Assembly (NCBI RefSeq): GCF_016908145.1
Contig: NZ_JAFBDI010000009.1
Span: 1-64,000 of the forward strand
DNA from: Marinitoga litoralis
GTDB lineage: Bacteria > Thermotogota > Thermotogae > Petrotogales > Petrotogaceae
DNA length: 64,000 bases
Direction of reading: 5' to 3'
Notes under the pieces: model-generated
What the model was told of the DNA's origin: nothing
Database searches by the model: none
Seen by the model: the letters and a program-made list of their open reading frames with translations, nothing else
Position numbers and translations under genes: made by a program
Shown: positions 30,730 to 39,098 of the stretch, in pieces
How the letters are laid out: every line of letters starts with the position of its first letter
How positions within the stretch are numbered: position 1 is the first letter of the stretch

Positions 30730-31471
30730 GATTACCAATTAAATTAAAGCTTTTTAAAAATCTATCTTTCACACTTAATCCGGTAAGTTGTAAAATATTA
30801 TCTTCATCTATAGCATTTTCCATATATGTTTTTGCATCATTTATATTTGTAAATAATCCAGAACATATAGCAAAATAATTTTTTCCACTATTTTGGAATC
30901 TCCCGTTATATACAAAAACAGGTATTCCCGCGTTTCTTAGTGTAAGTGTAGTAAAAAAAGCATCTTCTTCTGTTAGATATAATCGTAACTGTACAGTGTA
31001 AACTTTTTGTGTATCAAAATTTAAATTTTCAGAATAAAAGGTGTATAAATCTGTCGAAATAGGAGTTAAAAAATAATTTATATTATTTTCTATAGAGTTA
31101 ACGCTATTAAAAAAAGCATCATTTTTATTTAATACAGTTAATCCGCCTAAATCATTGTTTTTAAAACTACTTTTGGCGTTTTTAATTAAGTAATATATAT
31201 CAACATTCTTTTTTTCAATAATACCTTTTGGTTTAATATTAAGAAATTTATTTATTTCTTCTATATTTAGTTCAATTTTTTTATCGTCTAAATTATTAGA
31301 ATAATTATTATCTATATAATTTGTTTTTAACTCGTTTATTTTTATTTCTAGATTTCTAATCTTATACTTTAAATATAACGTATAGGAGGTTAGTAAAGCT
31401 AAAATCATAGGAACAATAATTAAAAATATAGTAATAAATATTAATCCCCAATCTTTTCTTTTTCTTATCAC
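30719..31471 (-). CDS. Membrane-anchored SPOR-like domain protein
   Basis: This is a 250-residue protein: one membrane helix (about 8-32), a short coiled coil (about 33-50), a linker, and a C-terminal domain KVYTVQLRLYLTEEDAFFTT ... LRNAGIPVFVYN ... YFAICSGLFTNINDAKTYME. The pattern matches the SPOR fold, which binds denuded peptidoglycan at division sites. The assignment rests on pattern only. A GTG start with AGAGGTGG upstream overlaps the previous stop by 4 bases. It is followed by the ComEA-like gene. Confidence 0.7.
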   Translation of the reverse strand: MIRKRKDWGLIFITIFLIIVPMILALLTSYTLYLKYKIRNLEIKINELKTNYIDNNYSNNLDDKKIELNIEEINKFLNIKPKGIIEKKNVDIYYLIKNAKSSFKNNDLGGLTVLNKNDAFFNSVNSIENNINYFLTPISTDLYTFYSENLNFDTQKVYTVQLRLYLTEEDAFFTTLTLRNAGIPVFVYNGRFQNSGKNYFAICSGLFTNINDAKTYMENAIDEDNILQLTGLSVKDRFLKSFNLIGNHEE

Positions 31472-32454
31472 AAAAATCCACCTCTAAAGTAATCTTTAAC
31501 TTCTTTAATAACAGCTAATAATTCATCTTTAGGTATTTTATATTTAATTAATTTTCCCGATGAAGTATATAATATAATATCTTTATCTTTAGAATCTAAT
31601 TCAATACCTTCTATTAATTTATATGAAATATCGAAATTATACGTAATTTCTTTTTCTATTTTTTCGAATAATTCAAAACTTAAAAAACCGTAGTACCACG
31701 AAATATACAATTCTATCAAGAAACTAATTCCAAAAACATTTAAATAATTTTTATTAAACCCAGATTTTTTATTATAAAATAATGTAATAATTGATTCACC
31801 AGGAAAAACAGAACTTTCATTTTTCAAATAATAAATCCACTGCTTGATTGAATAATACAAATAATCTTCTAAGTCTAATGTTGTAAAATTAAATTTTGAA
31901 TAATTTAATGACAATTCAGCAATTTTCGAATTCATAATCTTTCCTAATATATAAGGGATAATAAACATGTTCTTAAAACTTGTTTTTGGAATTGATTCAA
32001 ATAATATTGTATCAACAAATATATTTTTCGGATAACCTTTAATCATTAATAAGTCTTTTTTCCAATTGAAGTTTAAAAAATATTTACCCTTTAAAGGTAA
32101 CATAACAGCAGAATTTAAGTTTGATGGAAAAAAAGAATAATCATTAATATTTATATTTTCTAAAGTATATCCTAGTAACTCTAAGGTACTATATCCACCA
32201 AATACTAATGCTGAATTTACATTATTTTCTGATAATCTAATTAGTAAATTCAAATACTTATCCAAATTTTTAAGATTTTCATTGCCTATTACAGATATTG
32301 CATTTGTTAAATTCAGCTCATTAATAATCTTTATTTTTTTGTCATATATAATGTAATTATTATATCTTTTATTATTTATATGTTTATTGTAATAATTATT
32401 ACCAATAGTAATTTCAACATTATATCCATTTGATTCAAATAAAATGTTTTTCAA
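31468..32454 (-). CDS. 3-dehydroquinate synthase (AroB)-fold protein lacking catalytic residues
   Basis: This is a 328-residue protein. The order of motifs follows AroB: SALVFGGYSTLELLGYT where AroB has GGGVVGDLAGF, FFPSNLNSAVMLPLKGKYFLN where AroB has [20 protein letters not shown] (shown in parts: PSNLNSAV, KGKYFLN), PKNIFVDTILFESIP like P-V-D-L-TLP, then IPYILGKI where AroB has AEVIKYGI, and YLNVFGISFLIELY where AroB has LNLGHTFGHAIE. The NAD loop, the metal Glu and both metal His are changed, so activity is unlikely. A TTG start at 32454 is favoured (AGAGGTG plus 6 bases). It lies 29 bases after the HDAC-like gene. Confidence 0.6.
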   Translation of the reverse strand: MKNILFESNGYNVEITIGNNYYNKHINNKRYNNYIIYDKKIKIINELNLTNAISVIGNENLKNLDKYLNLLIRLSENNVNSALVFGGYSTLELLGYTLENININDYSFFPSNLNSAVMLPLKGKYFLNFNWKKDLLMIKGYPKNIFVDTILFESIPKTSFKNMFIIPYILGKIMNSKIAELSLNYSKFNFTTLDLEDYLYYSIKQWIYYLKNESSVFPGESIITLFYNKKSGFNKNYLNVFGISFLIELYISWYYGFLSFELFEKIEKEITYNFDISYKLIEGIELDSKDKDIILYTSSGKLIKYKIPKDELLAVIKEVKDYFRGGFL

Positions 32455-32483
32455 AAAATCCACCTCTAAAAAATATCAAAGTT

Positions 32484-33452
32484 CTAAATTAATAATCCAT
32501 CAAATAATTTACTAATGACAGATTCTGTAACATGAGATGAAAATCCGCCTTCTTGTATAAATAATTTAGGAATATTTAGATAAGAAAGCATTCCTCCCAT
32601 TTCTTTATAATCTTCATTTTTTAAATTAAATGTGGTAGTTGTATCTTTTTCATGTGTATTTGATCCAAAAGGAATAATTAAGAAATCTGGGTCAAAATCT
32701 TCTATTTCTAATAATGCTTTTTCTAAAACTCTTAAATAAGTTCTTCCATTAATATTGTCTTTTAAAGGGAAATTTATATTATATCCTCTTCCTTCATTTT
32801 CCCCAATTTCCCATTCATATCCAGATATAAAAGGATAATGTTCAGAAGGATTACCATGAATACTTATAGTCAATACAGTGTTATCTTCATAGAATATTTC
32901 TTGAGTACCATTTCCTGCATAAAAATCCAAATCAAGTATTGCAATATAAATATCTCCATTTTTTTGTAAATATCGAGTAGCTAAAGCTGCATTATTAAAG
33001 TATGAACCTCCTCCACAGGAAGAAATTCCAGCATGATGACCTAAAGGTCTTGAACAAGAATATACCAATTCTTCTCCTTCTAATAATAAAGAAGCACCTG
33101 TTAATGCACATTTTGCGCTTATCCATGCCATTTCAAAAGTGTTTTTATTAATAGGAGTTTTCGCGTCTATCGCCATGTCATGACCAAATACGTTAGGGAA
33201 ATATTCTTGATTATCGTCTAAATAATATTGCTTCTCCTTTAGCCAATTTACATAATCTAAAGAATGAACAAAATACAAGTATGACCTGGGAAAATCTTTT
33301 GATCCAACGATAACATCCCCATATTTTAACTGCATAATTTCTTTAATGACTTCAATTCTGCCAGGTTTGTCCTTGTTTTCAATTAAATCAAATCCATCAA
33401 ATTCATGTTTTGGTGAATAAAAAACATGTCTAGGATCATAAATAAGTTTCAT
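32484..33452 (-). CDS. HDAC/acetylpolyamine-amidohydrolase-fold protein with altered zinc site
   Basis: This is a 322-residue protein, clearly of the arginase/deacetylase superfamily and closest in pattern to acetylpolyamine amidohydrolases. The His pair in RPLGHHAG (139-140), the FNNAA loop and LDFYAGNGTQEIFY (175-188) are recognisable. However, the zinc His of D-x-H-H-G is Tyr178, the second zinc Asp (G-x-D-T/A) is Asn265, and the catalytic Tyr of E-G-G-Y is Phe304. Only Asp176 of the zinc ligands remains. It may be a non-hydrolytic binding protein. Good ribosome site GGAGG. It follows rpiB by 2 bases. Confidence 0.87.
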   Translation of the reverse strand: MKLIYDPRHVFYSPKHEFDGFDLIENKDKPGRIEVIKEIMQLKYGDVIVGSKDFPRSYLYFVHSLDYVNWLKEKQYYLDDNQEYFPNVFGHDMAIDAKTPINKNTFEMAWISAKCALTGASLLLEGEELVYSCSRPLGHHAGISSCGGGSYFNNAALATRYLQKNGDIYIAILDLDFYAGNGTQEIFYEDNTVLTISIHGNPSEHYPFISGYEWEIGENEGRGYNINFPLKDNINGRTYLRVLEKALLEIEDFDPDFLIIPFGSNTHEKDTTTTFNLKNEDYKEMGGMLSYLNIPKLFIQEGGFSSHVTESVISKLFDGLLI

Positions 33453-33454
33453 AA

Positions 33455-33892
33455 TTATTCCTCCATTTCGGAAATTAATCTTAGCCTATTTTCATGTCTT
33501 CCCCCTTCAAAAGATGTATTTAAAAATGTATCAACAGTCCACTCAGCAAGTTCAAATCCCATAGTTCTTCCACCAAGTACTAAAATGTTAGCATTATTAT
33601 GTTGTCTAGCTAATTCAGCCATTTTAGGATAATAAGCTAAAGTAGCTCTGATTCCTTTAACTTTATTTGCTGCAATAGACATTCCTAAACCGGTCCCACA
33701 CATTAATATCCCAAAATCTACCTCTTTATTAGCTACTTTATCAGCAACTTTTTTAGCATATATTGGATAATCAACCCTTTCACTAGAATATGGACCTTCA
33801 TCTATAACTTCAATTCCTTTTTCTTCTAAATATTTTTTAATATGTTCTTTCATTACAAAAGCAGCATGATCAGAACCAATAGCTATTTTCAT
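33455..33892 (-). CDS. rpiB: Ribose-5-phosphate isomerase B
   Basis: This is a 145-residue enzyme that interconverts ribose-5-phosphate and ribulose-5-phosphate. The RpiB/LacAB signature is intact: IAIGSDHAAFVMKE, DEGPYSSERVDYP, the catalytic Cys in FGILMCGTGLGMSIAANK and HNNANILVLGGRTMG. The ATG at 33892 is used, with GAGGTGG just upstream. It overlaps the LexA-like gene end by 23 bases. The same neighbour pair is, as I recall, present in Thermotoga. Confidence 0.95.
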   Translation of the reverse strand: MKIAIGSDHAAFVMKEHIKKYLEEKGIEVIDEGPYSSERVDYPIYAKKVADKVANKEVDFGILMCGTGLGMSIAANKVKGIRATLAYYPKMAELARQHNNANILVLGGRTMGFELAEWTVDTFLNTSFEGGRHENRLRLISEMEE

Positions 33893-34331
33893 CAACAACC
33901 ACCTCTTTTAATTTTAATGTTCCGATTATAGAATTTTTTCTCAATAATATAATTGCATCTTTTTCATAATCTAAATAGTCATTTTTTATTAGCAGCACTA
34001 AAATTTCAGCTGAACTTTTTATATTAATATTAGAAATACACTTTAAATATTTAATATTTTCGTATAACACTATATTCCCATCTATTAATTCGCCATTTAA
34101 CTCAATAACACCATATTTTTTTGAATTAATTATTTTTATACCTCTAGAATTCCCAGAAATTTCTATAACTCCTTTTTTTTCTAAAGCCTTAAGATGAGAA
34201 TGTACTGTAGAAACACTTTTTAATCCAAAATAATTCATTATTTCCCTCATAGAAGGAGGATACCCTTTTACTTGAATATAAAATTCTATATAATCTAAAA
34301 TTTTCTTTTGTTTATTAGTAATTCTTTTCAT
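33870..34331 (-). CDS. LexA-like repressor with degenerate, probably non-cleaving C-terminal domain
   Basis: This is a 153-residue protein. Residues 1-68 are a typical LexA winged helix: ITNKQKKILDYIE, GYPPSMREIMNYFGLKS, TVHSHLKALEKKGVIE. The C-terminal domain is short. The cleavage site region IPLLG-x-I-A-A-G becomes IELNGELIDG (Asp84-Gly85), and the G-D-S-M nucleophile motif becomes KNDYL (Tyr119). So neither the Ala-Gly bond nor the Ser is present, and RecA-stimulated self-cleavage is not expected. The ATG at 34331 has GAGGG upstream. It occupies the lexA place in the metG-gyrA-archease-lexA-rpiB order. Confidence 0.8.
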   Translation of the reverse strand: MKRITNKQKKILDYIEFYIQVKGYPPSMREIMNYFGLKSVSTVHSHLKALEKKGVIEISGNSRGIKIINSKKYGVIELNGELIDGNIVLYENIKYLKCISNINIKSSAEILVLLIKNDYLDYEKDAIILLRKNSIIGTLKLKEVVVDENSYWF

Positions 34332-34338
34332 AATACCC

Positions 34339-34716
34339 TCATATATCAAAAATAACATTTATTATATAATTATCATCATTTGAAATAACTTTAGGATATG
34401 AAATAGCTTTTATTTCAGTTTCTGGATTTAGTTTTAATATTTTTGAAAAAAATATTTTTAATTCATCATCGTTTTTTTCGATTTTCGAAGGAAAATAACC
34501 TTCATAAATTTTATTTAAAGAGTAATTACCAATATCAAATAAAATATCATCAAATTCCTTATTTGAAATAGAATATGAAAAATGGTTCTCAATTCCTCCT
34601 ACTAAAGGTAAAAAAACTTTATTTAAAGCGTCAAACAAATCCTCTAAAAGGTCAATAATATTTTCACCATTTAATTCGAACATAATATCAGCAGGATGAT
34701 TTAATTCTTTACTCAT
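34339..34716 (-). CDS. Archease family protein
   Basis: This is a 125-residue protein. The N-terminus [20 protein letters not shown] matches the archease start D-H-T-A-D-I-x-F-x-x-x-G, with Asn replacing the first Asp. The C-terminus [24 protein letters not shown] keeps I-K-A-x-x-Y and the final Asp metal ligand (shown in part: [13 protein letters not shown]). Archease activates the RNA ligase RtcB; no rtcB is in the window. The third of three consecutive ATG codons (34716) is best placed for the GGTGGT site; it overlaps the gyrA end by 8 bases. Confidence 0.85.
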
Positions 34717-37141
34717 CATCATCAACCACCACAGCAGCATCAGCAACTGTATCTTCATTGTCTAATCTTAAAGCTCTTACACCAATAGCATATCTACTTA
34801 AAGTAGAGATTGTTTTTACTTCTTCTCTAATAGCTTTACCTAATTTTGAAAAAACAATAATATGACTATCATCATCAACAGTTAAAGCTTTTACAATGTC
34901 ACCTATTCTAGAAGTTTCTTTTACACATTTTAGTCCTACTCCACCTCTATTTTGAAGTCTAAAATCATCAAAATTTACTCTTTTTGCAAAACCATGTTCT
35001 GTTATCAATAATAAACTCTTATCTTTTACAACAAGGACACCATTAACAACATTATCGTTTTCTCTTAATTTTATAGATCTAACTCCAGCAGCAGATCTAC
35101 CCATTGGCCTTACATCAGCTACTTTAAATCTCAAACTCATACCTTTTTTACTTATAACTAATACTTCATCGGAATTATTTACTATTAATGCATCAACAAC
35201 CATGTCATCTTCTTTGATTGTTATAGCTTTTAATCCATTTTTTCTAATATTAGAAAATTCATTTAAAGCTGTTCTTTTAACAATTCCATTTTTTGTAAAT
35301 AACATAATATATTTATTTTCAATATCTTTTTCATTTTCAATAGGGATAATGGTTTTAATTTTTTCATCATTATCTAAATATAAATAAGATGAAATATGTT
35401 TTCCTTTTGTTTCTTTTGAACTCTTTTCAATGTTATATGCATATAATTCAAATGCTTTACCCTTAGAGGTTATAAATAATAATTTTGAAAGGCTATTAGT
35501 TTGTAATACTTGAATAATAAAATCGTTATCTGATTTTTTAATAGCTTTAGAACCTTTCCCACCTCTATTTTGAACCTTGTACTCTGTACTTTTCATCGCT
35601 TTAATATAACCCCATTGTGTTAATACAATAACCAAATCTTCTTCTTCGATATTATCAGCATCTTCTACTTTTGAACCTTGATTAGTAATTTTTGTTTTTC
35701 TTTCATCTCCAAATTTTTCTTTTACTTCTTTAAGCTCTTCTTTGATAACTTCTAACATTTTAGATTTGTTATTTAAAATTTCCATTGCATCTTTAATTTT
35801 TTGAGTTAATTCGGCATATTCTTTTTCTAATTTTTGCCCTTCTAATTTTGATAAGCTAATCAATCTCATATCAACAATTGCATTTGCTTGTTCTTTAGTT
35901 ACATTAATTATTTCCATTAAACTATTTACGGCTTCTTCTCTTCCTTCAGATTGTCTAATAATTTCAATAACTGATTCTATACCTTCAGAAGCTTTCATTA
36001 ATCCTTCTACAATATGAGATCTTTTTCTCGCTTTATCCAATTCAAATTGAGTACGTCTTGTTACAACATCAATTCTATGGTCTATAAATGCCTCTAATAT
36101 TTGTTTTAAATTCATTACTTTAGGTTTTCTTTTATCTATTACAGTCATTTGAACCGCAAAAGATGTTTGCAATGAAGTATGTTTTAATAATTGATTTATT
36201 ATTCTTTGAGGATTAACATTTTTCTTTAATTCTATTACAACACGAATACCTTCTTTATCAGATTCGTCTCTAATATTCTTAATACCTACATCTTTTTTAT
36301 TTTCCTTTTGCTTTGTAACATAATTTGCTATTTGGGTAATTAAATCAGCTTTTGAGACTCCGTACGGGATTTCATTAATTACGATACTAATTCCATTTTT
36401 ATTTTCTTCTAATTCATATTTTGATCTAATATGAAAAGAACCTCTTCCAGTTTCATAAATTTCTTTTAATTTATTCCCATCAACTATTATTCCTCCAGTT
36501 GGGAAATCTGGACCTTTAATATAATTCATCAAATCATTAATGTTAGAATCTGGATTATCAATTAAATGAGTGATTCCATCAACTAACTCATTTAAATTAT
36601 GAGATGGAATATTTGTTGCCATACCAACGGCAATTCCATTAACACCATTCATTAAAAGATTTGGCAATCTAGTAGGCAAAACTGATGGTTCTTTTAAAGA
36701 ACCATCAAAATTATCCAACATATCCACAGTATTTTTATCTATATCCATTAGCATATATTCTGCTAATTCATGCATTTTTGCTTCGGTATATCTCATTGCA
36801 GCAGGTGGATCTCTATCAACAGAACCAAAATTACCTTGACCAATAACTAAAGGGTATCTTAAACTAAAAGGTTGAGCCATTCTAACTAAAGCATCATATA
36901 TTGCAGCATCACCATGAGGGTGATACTTACCCATTACTTCTCCAACAATACGGGCACATTTTTTATATGCTGCAGTATGTTTTAAACTTAGTTCATCCAT
37001 TGAATATAAAATTCTTCTTTGAACAGGTTTAAGGCCATCCCGAACATCTGGTATAGCCCTACTGGTAATAACACTTAAAGAATATAAAAGATAAGATTCT
37101 TTCAATTCTTCTTCAAAAGATTTATTTAAAATATCGCTCAT
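34709..37141 (-). CDS. gyrA: DNA gyrase subunit A
   Basis: This is an 810-residue subunit that breaks and rejoins DNA. The breakage domain has [37 protein letters not shown] and the active Tyr in [12 protein letters not shown]. The C-terminal pinwheel contains the gyrase box [11 protein letters not shown], which marks GyrA rather than ParC. The quinolone region position equal to E. coli Ser83 is Ala (GDAAIYD), a residue linked to low quinolone sensitivity. It lies 13 bases after metG. Confidence 0.97.
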
Positions 37142-37154
37142 ATTAACCCCCTAC

Positions 37155-39098
37155 TTAAGAAATTTTTGCTCCTGGTTCAATATCACCATCTGTGGTTAAA
37201 AGAACTAGTTTATTATTTATTTTTGCAGCTAATAACATTCCATTTGATTCTATTCCCATTAGTTTAGCAGGTTTTAAATTAGCAACAACAATTATTTTTT
37301 TACCTACTAAATTTTCTGGTTCATAATAGTTTGCAATACCAGCAACTATTTGTCTTTGACCTAATTCTCCTAAATCTAATTGCAATTTTACTAATTTTTT
37401 AGATTTTTTTACTTTCTCAGCTTCTAATATCTTAGCAACTCTTAAATCTACATTTTTAAAGTAGTTTATATCAATTAAAACATTTTCTATATTTTCATCT
37501 TTTTTTATTTCATCCATTTTATTATCCTCCTTATTTTTCATAATTATAACTTTTTTCCATGTTTTTACATCAATTCTTTTGAAAATAGGTTCTCCAATAA
37601 TAACCTTTTTACCACTTTCTAATAGTCCAATTTTAATATTTTCATTGTTTATATAATTTTCCGTATCTATAGATAATTTCTTTAATATTTCTATAGCAGT
37701 ATCTGGCATAATAGGAGATATTAATAATGCAATAATTCTTATAGAATCCATTAAATTATACATAACTGTTGCTAATCTTGGTTTCTTTTCTTCATCTTTC
37801 CCTAACAACCAAGGTTCTGTTAAATCAATATATTTATTTGTAAATCTTACTAGTTCCCATAAGCTTTCCAAAGCATGAGTAAATTGATATTTATCTACAT
37901 AGTTTTCATATGATTTAATAGTATTCTCTATTAATTCAAATAATTGAGTATCCACGTCTTCTTTTTGATCCGGAGCAGGAATAATACCATCAAAATATTT
38001 ATTTACCATTGATAATGTTCTATGTACTAGGTTACTTAAATCATTAACTAAGTCAGAATTATATCTTGTGATTAAATTATCTTCAGAAAAGTCTCCGTCT
38101 TTCCCAAAAACAATATCTCTCATTAAATAATATCTTATAACATCATTGCCATATGCATCCACTAATACTCTTGGATCGATAGCATTTCCTAAAGATTTTG
38201 ATATTTTTTCACCATTCACAGTTAACCAACCATGAGCAAAAACTTTTTTAGGTAATGGAAGTCCTACGGACATTAACATTGCAGGCCAAATCAATGAATG
38301 GAATCTGTTGATTTCTTTTCCGATTAAATGAACATCAGCAGGCCAATATTTATTAAATAATTCTGGATTATCAGGATAACCTAATGCACTAACGTAATTA
38401 ATTAAAGCATCAACCCAAACATATATAACGTGTTTTGGATCGTTAGGCATAGGAACGCCCCAATCAAAAGTTGTTCTAGTAATGCTCAAATCTTTTAAAC
38501 CACTCTCTAAAATTTTCAACATTTCATTTTTTCTAAATTCTGGTTCTAAGAAATCAGGATTTTCTTCAAAAAATTTTTTTAAAGGTTCATTATATTTAGA
38601 AAGTTTAAAGAAATAATTTTCTTCTTCAACCCAATTAACCTCTCTTGAACAGGAAGGACATACTTTTTTTCCATCTTTTTCTTCAATTTCATCATTTGTC
38701 CAATAAGTTTCACAAGGAACACAATACCATCCTTCATATTTACCTTTATATATATCACCATTTTCAAGCATTTTTTGTACAAAGAATTGAACGGTTTTCA
38801 TATGTTGTTCATCAGTTGTTCTAACAAAATAATCATTAGTTATTTTTAATTCTTTCCATAATGATTTAAATTTTCCGGATAATTCATCACATAACTCTTG
38901 AGGGTGGATACCTTTTTCTTTTGCGGCTTGTAGGATTTTTTGTCCGTGTTCATCTGTACCTGTTAAATAAAAGACATCATATCCTCTCATTCTTTTATAT
39001 CTAGCTATAATATCTCCAACTATTGTTGTATAACTTGAACCAATATGAGGTTCTGCGTTTACATAATATATTGGAGTAGTAATATAAAATTTTTTCAT
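37155..39098 (-). CDS. metG: Methionyl-tRNA synthetase
   Basis: This is a 647-residue class I synthetase. The HIGH motif is AEPHIGSSYT (residues 11-20). Zinc knuckle cysteines are in CVPCETYW and CPSCSREVNW. The KMSKS loop is GEKISKSLGN. The anticodon-binding helical domain follows, and after a Lys/Glu-rich linker comes a C-terminal EMAP/Trbp111-type tRNA-binding domain (INYFKNVDLRVAKILEAEKV; NLKPAKLMGIESNGM). This is the long form that dimerises. It is the first gene of the long leftward string and is divergent from proS. Confidence 0.97.
   Translation of the reverse strand: MKKFYITTPIYYVNAEPHIGSSYTTIVGDIIARYKRMRGYDVFYLTGTDEHGQKILQAAKEKGIHPQELCDELSGKFKSLWKELKITNDYFVRTTDEQHMKTVQFFVQKMLENGDIYKGKYEGWYCVPCETYWTNDEIEEKDGKKVCPSCSREVNWVEEENYFFKLSKYNEPLKKFFEENPDFLEPEFRKNEMLKILESGLKDLSITRTTFDWGVPMPNDPKHVIYVWVDALINYVSALGYPDNPELFNKYWPADVHLIGKEINRFHSLIWPAMLMSVGLPLPKKVFAHGWLTVNGEKISKSLGNAIDPRVLVDAYGNDVIRYYLMRDIVFGKDGDFSEDNLITRYNSDLVNDLSNLVHRTLSMVNKYFDGIIPAPDQKEDVDTQLFELIENTIKSYENYVDKYQFTHALESLWELVRFTNKYIDLTEPWLLGKDEEKKPRLATVMYNLMDSIRIIALLISPIMPDTAIEILKKLSIDTENYINNENIKIGLLESGKKVIIGEPIFKRIDVKTWKKVIIMKNKEDNKMDEIKKDENIENVLIDINYFKNVDLRVAKILEAEKVKKSKKLVKLQLDLGELGQRQIVAGIANYYEPENLVGKKIIVVANLKPAKLMGIESNGMLLAAKINNKLVLLTTDGDIEPGAKIS

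Follow-up and report, generated by a model that had tools for sequence, protein, structure and literature searches.

The 64,000-nucleotide stretch of Marinitoga litoralis DNA analysed here, called the window, carries on its minus strand a string of genes that includes metG, gyrA, a LexA-like gene and rpiB, and after them the gene for a 322-residue protein, P0001 (Table 1). A reading made from the letters of the DNA alone, the sequence-only reading, had described P0001 as an acetylpolyamine amidohydrolase (APAH)-like protein with altered catalytic residues. Its span for the open reading frame was exact, and the strand, which it did not give, is supplied here. By descent P0001 belongs to PF00850 (Hist_deacetyl), in the APAH branch. 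It matches the family profile over residues 29-317 (E 1.4e-57; 195.8 bits against a curated cut-off of 27.9), and its closest solved relatives are the acetylpolyamine amidohydrolases msAPAH (6phr), PsApaH (9gkz) and MrApaH (3q9b).

Table 1. Genes, codons and repeats at the P0001 locus, in window positions
Feature	Position	Strand	Remark
Second gene downstream of P0001	30719-31471	-	Order kept across family
331-aa protein, next gene downstream	31468..32463	-	Kept across family, as is its order
Exact 17-base repeat, two copies	31472-31488 and 32454-32470		Start regions of two consecutive downstream genes
P0001, APAH-fold protein, predicted to be zinc-less, 322 aa	32484..33452	-	ATG start
Codon 304, TTT, Phe for catalytic Tyr	32541..32543	-	Phe 7/7 Marinitoga; Tyr 41/41 canonical orthologs
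Codons 271-273, Thr-Thr-Thr for gatekeeper P-x-G	32634..32642	-	Thr273 in 7/7
Codon 265, AAT, Asn for second zinc-ligand Asp	32658..32660	-	Asn 7/7; Asp 41/41 canonical
Codon 178, TAT, Tyr for zinc-ligand His	32919..32921	-	Tyr 7/7 Marinitoga; His 41/41 canonical orthologs
Codons 174-176, Asp-Leu-Asp, charge-relay Asp and first zinc-ligand Asp	32925..32933	-	Kept 7/7
Codons 149-150, Gly-Ser for tunnel Tyr-Cys (MrApaH Tyr168)	33003..33008	-
Codons 139-140, His-His dyad, kept	33033..33038	-	Second His is Asn in 1/7 genomes
Codon 98, Lys at L2 rim position (MrApaH Glu117, PsApaH Gly117)	33159..33161	-
Position 87	33192-33194
Codon 17, Glu17 of L1 hairpin	33402..33404	-	Kept 7/7
rpiB, directly upstream	33455..33898	-	Adjoins APAH in every compared locus having APAH
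LexA-like gene of string	33870..34358	-	Marinitoga copies lack the cleavage site and catalytic residues
Archease-like gene	34339-34758	-
gyrA, string member	34709..37141	-
metG, string member	37155..39098	-

The likeness to APAHs had been claimed for the full length of the protein, including the motifs RPLGHHAG and GNGTQEIFY, and both motifs are indeed present. An AlphaFold2 model of P0001 made from an input alignment of 50 orthologs (pLDDT 94, pTM 0.93) superposes on msAPAH 6phr with a TM of 0.95 (E 2.5e-33), with the caveat that a model fed with canonical homologs will come out with the canonical fold. Profile score and predicted structure thus both point to a retained arginase/deacetylase fold. 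Glu17 and the residues conserved in the L2 region are present, and the geometry of the L1 and L2 loops is that of a predicted monomer.

The order metG-gyrA-(archease)-lexA-rpiB-APAH, or the fetched part of it, recurs in the compared loci of families f1, f2, f3, f8 and f10, and in f1 the string is extended by o331-o250-comEA-queH. The genes are consequently orthologous in their position and not just in their sequence, and the housekeeping setting that the sequence-only reading had seen in one genome holds across families. The neighbours show several features of their own. The LexA-like proteins of Marinitoga, about 150-170 residues long, keep the winged helix-turn-helix and have no Ala-Gly cleavage site, GxSM serine or catalytic lysine, all of which are found in the full-length LexA of sister genera; a further protein that contains an S24 peptidase domain is encoded elsewhere in the window genome (G000:C2:20392-20742). 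The archease-like gene has a weak Pfam score (36 bits). Neither of the two genes downstream of P0001 has a match in Pfam or NCBIfam, and the repeat shared by their start regions probably reflects a similar translation-start context. Scans for promoters, terminators and repeats around the APAH gene gave nothing usable, and PADLOC returned no match, leaving a reading as an anti-phage defence family unsupported.

Replaced and retained active-site residues

Zinc-dependent hydrolysis in this superfamily uses an Asp-His-Asp metal site and a tyrosine. Gap-free motif alignments to 6phr, 9gkz and 3q9b place Tyr178 (DLDFYAG) at the zinc histidine of P0001, Asn265 (GSNTH) at the second zinc aspartate and Phe304 (EGGF) at the catalytic tyrosine. 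These are the positions that had been named from the sequence. The metal site therefore reads Asp176/Tyr178/Asn265, and the XGGY motif ends in Phe304 in all seven Marinitoga genomes. Judged by its defining residues, P0001 fails as a classical zinc-dependent deacylase.

Other parts of the site are kept. The double histidine is His139-His140 in six genomes and His-Asn in the seventh (G005, Asn140), and the L2-region residues E83, Y84, D92 and D96 are invariant even in the degenerate orthologs of genera g5 and g6 described below. The surroundings of the substrate have changed further. The gatekeeper, which is P-x-G in most canonical orthologs and PIS or PEG in characterised enzymes, is T-T-T in the window copy, and the rim position 98, a glycine in canonical orthologs, is a lysine in six of the seven Marinitoga genomes. 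At position 87 the usual glutamate is possibly the counterpart of the polyamine-selective Glu106 of MrApaH, an uncertain equivalence obtained by counting rather than by alignment, and lysine takes its place in 6 of 41 canonical orthologs, including those of g2 and g8. Since Lys87 already occurs in these canonical sister genera, a shift in the preferred substrate may have preceded the loss of catalysis.

The replacements are a property of the genus. Tyr178, Asn265 and Phe304 are common to all seven Marinitoga genomes, the six other copies being 77-92% identical to that in the window, and the canonical His, Asp and Tyr are found in g2 and g8, both sister genera, as well as in the remainder of the class (41 of 41 canonical orthologs). 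Such agreement among seven genomes rules out a one-off mutation or a sequencing error, the possibility on which the sequence-only reading would have fallen. A search of contigs with the single sequence added matches only from M. lauensis and one distant MAG.

The extent of change can be gauged from 75 near-invariant sites, defined as those at which at least 95% of canonical orthologs agree. Six of them are altered in every Marinitoga genome (G98K/I, C150S/A, H178Y, D265N, G273T and Y304F), and two more, Y149 (to G or R) and H179 (the second His of HHG, to A), are altered in six of the seven. When each canonical ortholog is left out in turn, it departs from the others at 0-5 such sites, so the changes shared by the whole genus exceed ordinary drift. 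By homology, all six sites lie in or next to the active site. The probability that all six would fall within a 16-position set of active-site residues listed by homology is 4e-5, a value that is descriptive only because the list was drawn up after the changes were seen.

Selection, parallel losses and gene absence

The gene is maintained under strong purifying selection. Among six pairs of genomes in the genus, its dN/dS (NG86) is 0.026-0.087, compared with 0.026-0.055 for gyrA, 0.033-0.069 for metG and 0.04-0.15 for rpiB in the same pairs. Values are higher for the LexA-like gene (0.13-0.45) and for the archease-like gene (0.12-0.35), the latter being less constrained than the APAH gene. These ratios are approximate, because synonymous sites approach saturation once dS exceeds about 1; for the two least diverged pairs, at dS 0.56 and 0.94, the ratio is 0.026 and 0.047, respectively. 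Reading frames are intact in all seven genomes, and third-base constancy at codons 178, 265 and 304 was uninformative. Protein divergence relative to GyrA and MetG is 1.78 in Marinitoga, 1.17 in f2, 1.03 in g2-g8 and 1.84 in the canonical f8. Loss of catalytic residues is thus combined with purifying selection, as expected of a conserved pseudoenzyme. The closeness of dN/dS to that of gyrA and metG speaks against decay in Marinitoga, a point argued earlier from fold and gene context.

Among the Thermotogota orthologs compared, two further genera of the family have lost the zinc site and one clade has deleted the gene, points that are missing from the sequence-only reading. Genera g5 and g6, each represented by one genome (L012 and L011, respectively), carry D174N, D176N/G, H178N/F, H139I and E17K/I, and L012 additionally has D265N and Y304T. 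The L012 protein is still predicted to retain the fold (pLDDT 89, TM 0.93), again with canonical homologs in the input alignment. In genera g3, g4 and g7 (L151-L155) the string is kept and the APAH gene is absent, with roughly 40-60 bases between rpiB and o331. The family thus presents one clean gene absence and two degenerations.

A tree of GyrA and MetG rooted on other families places Marinitoga (g1) outside all other sampled family members (100/100), and g5 and g6 lie inside, grouped with the canonical g2 and g8. With Marinitoga basal and the outgroups canonical, the zinc site must have been lost twice independently or else regained, which is implausible. A single shared origin for the losses of Marinitoga and g5/g6 was rejected on the strength of this tree and of the differing substitutions; the APAH gene tree joins the two in a clade at only 57/19 support and decides neither way. 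That g5 and g6 lost the site on their own, yet keep an unbroken gene at its usual locus, fits a role that has no need for catalysis.

Candidate roles and comparison with known systems

The explanation we favour, with moderate confidence, is that P0001 is a zinc-free pseudo-amidohydrolase that descended vertically from the class-wide APAH adjoining rpiB and is kept, probably as a dimer, to bind a ligand or act as a scaffold without catalysis. The replacements at the metal site and of the catalytic tyrosine are fixed in Marinitoga, and what has been retained is the predicted arginase/deacetylase fold and L1 hairpin, Glu17, the conserved L2-loop residues and most of the dyad. Only one of the three zinc ligands is left and the oxyanion tyrosine is gone, so amide hydrolysis by the known route is not to be expected, and the earlier statement that the protein should not act as a zinc deacetylase gains support from residues replaced in all seven genomes. 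Loops L1 and L2 form the head-to-head dimer and the lid of APAHs (PMC11532494), and their retention suggests by analogy that P0001 is probably still a dimer. Rebuilding of the tunnel, rim and gatekeeper would have remodelled the acetylpolyamine pocket and makes non-catalytic binding or scaffolding the most likely use in the cell. Most likely, then, an old enzyme has turned into a working non-enzyme, and the non-catalytic role may already have stood beside catalysis in the ancestor. Three observations fit this explanation less well. A pure scaffold would not need the His dyad, Asp174 and Asp176, which are largely kept; divergence relative to GyrA and MetG is above that of canonical g2-g8 and f2, although not above that of canonical f8; and one clade (g3/g4/g7) does without the gene. 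A broader proposal, which we hold tentatively and with less assurance, is that rpiB-adjoining APAHs of Thermotogota have an unrecognised non-catalytic role that became their sole role at least twice independently, in Marinitoga and in g5/g6.

A special case of the favoured explanation is a reader of polyamines or acetylpolyamines, in which the dead site holds its ligand under the L1 lid and serves as a sensor or sink. Glu17, the His dyad and the acidic L2 residues are all in place for it, and spermidine synthase is encoded in 20 of 21 family genomes. However, the tunnel tyrosine is lost and the rim glycine has become lysine in six of seven genomes, the gatekeeper is replaced, and an acetyl oxygen would have no zinc to hold it. 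The binding of acetylated ligands or polyamines envisaged in the sequence-only reading is therefore possible but weakened, since most substrate-contacting pocket residues have changed and Glu87 was already replaced in sister genera. Glu17 is the main remaining feature in favour of a cationic ligand, and we consider such a reader unlikely. Somewhat less probable again is a different reaction, at a metal-independent or other-metal site built from His139-His140, Asp174, Asp176, Tyr178 and Asn265. Both aspartates are kept throughout the genus and the dyad in six of seven genomes, with Tyr178, Asn265 and Phe304 invariant, but Asn140 interrupts the dyad in G005 and g5/g6 have lost its first histidine as well. 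We know of no precedent for such chemistry in the superfamily.

Two further alternatives are much less probable than either of these. A residual zinc deacetylase, weakly active through a metal bound by Asp176 and other groups, could draw on that aspartate and the dyad. It is very improbable given the joint absence of two ligands and the oxyanion tyrosine in all seven genomes; loss of the tyrosine alone makes class IIa histone deacetylases (HDACs) inefficient (PMC12383505). Least probable of all is a gene that has lost catalysis and is drifting towards the absence seen in g3/g4/g7. The faster evolution in g5/g6 would suit such decay, but for Marinitoga it is largely refuted by the dN/dS range and the intact frames.

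In length, Glu17, conserved L2-region residues, His dyad and first zinc aspartate the Marinitoga protein agrees with bacterial APAHs, the cluster 4 classical deacylases (6phr, 3q9b, 9gkz), as it does in its predicted fold and L1 hairpin. It differs from them in two zinc ligands and in the catalytic tyrosine, tunnel tyrosine, rim residue and gatekeeper. In its working it would, by analogy, most resemble the class IIa HDACs and the pseudo-deacetylase domain of human HDAC10. Class IIa HDACs, in which the catalytic tyrosine is a histidine, have likewise lost this residue and been retained, and they have been termed pseudoenzymes and possible acetyl-lysine readers (PMC12383505). Unlike P0001, they keep their zinc site, of which it has lost two of three ligands, and they have a regulatory N-terminal region that it does not. 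The HDAC10 domain is catalytically dead and retained in evolution (PMC11532494), but it shares its polypeptide with an active domain, whereas the Marinitoga protein stands alone, and no active HDAC-family partner is encoded in the window genome.

Published work describes total conservation of the active site among classical deacylases of bacteria (PMC11532494); Marinitoga departs from this throughout the genus, in a protein that is under strong selection. No published account of a bacterial pseudo-APAH was found in the literature searched, most subscription journals lying outside that search. Annotation from PF00850 alone would wrongly credit these organisms with a deacetylase. With independent parallel losses in sister genera, and with natural controls in the canonical orthologs that occupy the same gene string, the family offers a clean system for learning how an HDAC-fold protein serves the cell without being an enzyme. 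It also allows one to ask if APAHs perform another task that is connected with the adjacent genes. If the broader proposal is true, these proteins would form a lineage of bacterial zinc-free HDAC-fold regulators or scaffolds.

Two explanations for the loss that look elsewhere in the genome were rejected. A link to loss of spermidine synthase fails because 20 of 21 family genomes have that gene; the sole genome without it is an assembly of 520 contigs. A hidden active paralog is disfavoured because no other PF00850 gene was found in the window genome, G004 or G006, and the distant HDAC present in four of the seven genus genomes has intact zinc ligands but phenylalanine for the catalytic tyrosine. 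In this second HDAC subfamily (L038-L041 and L166-L170, from four Marinitoga genomes and f11) all nine sequences read GGGGF instead of GGGGY, with the zinc ligands and His dyad kept.
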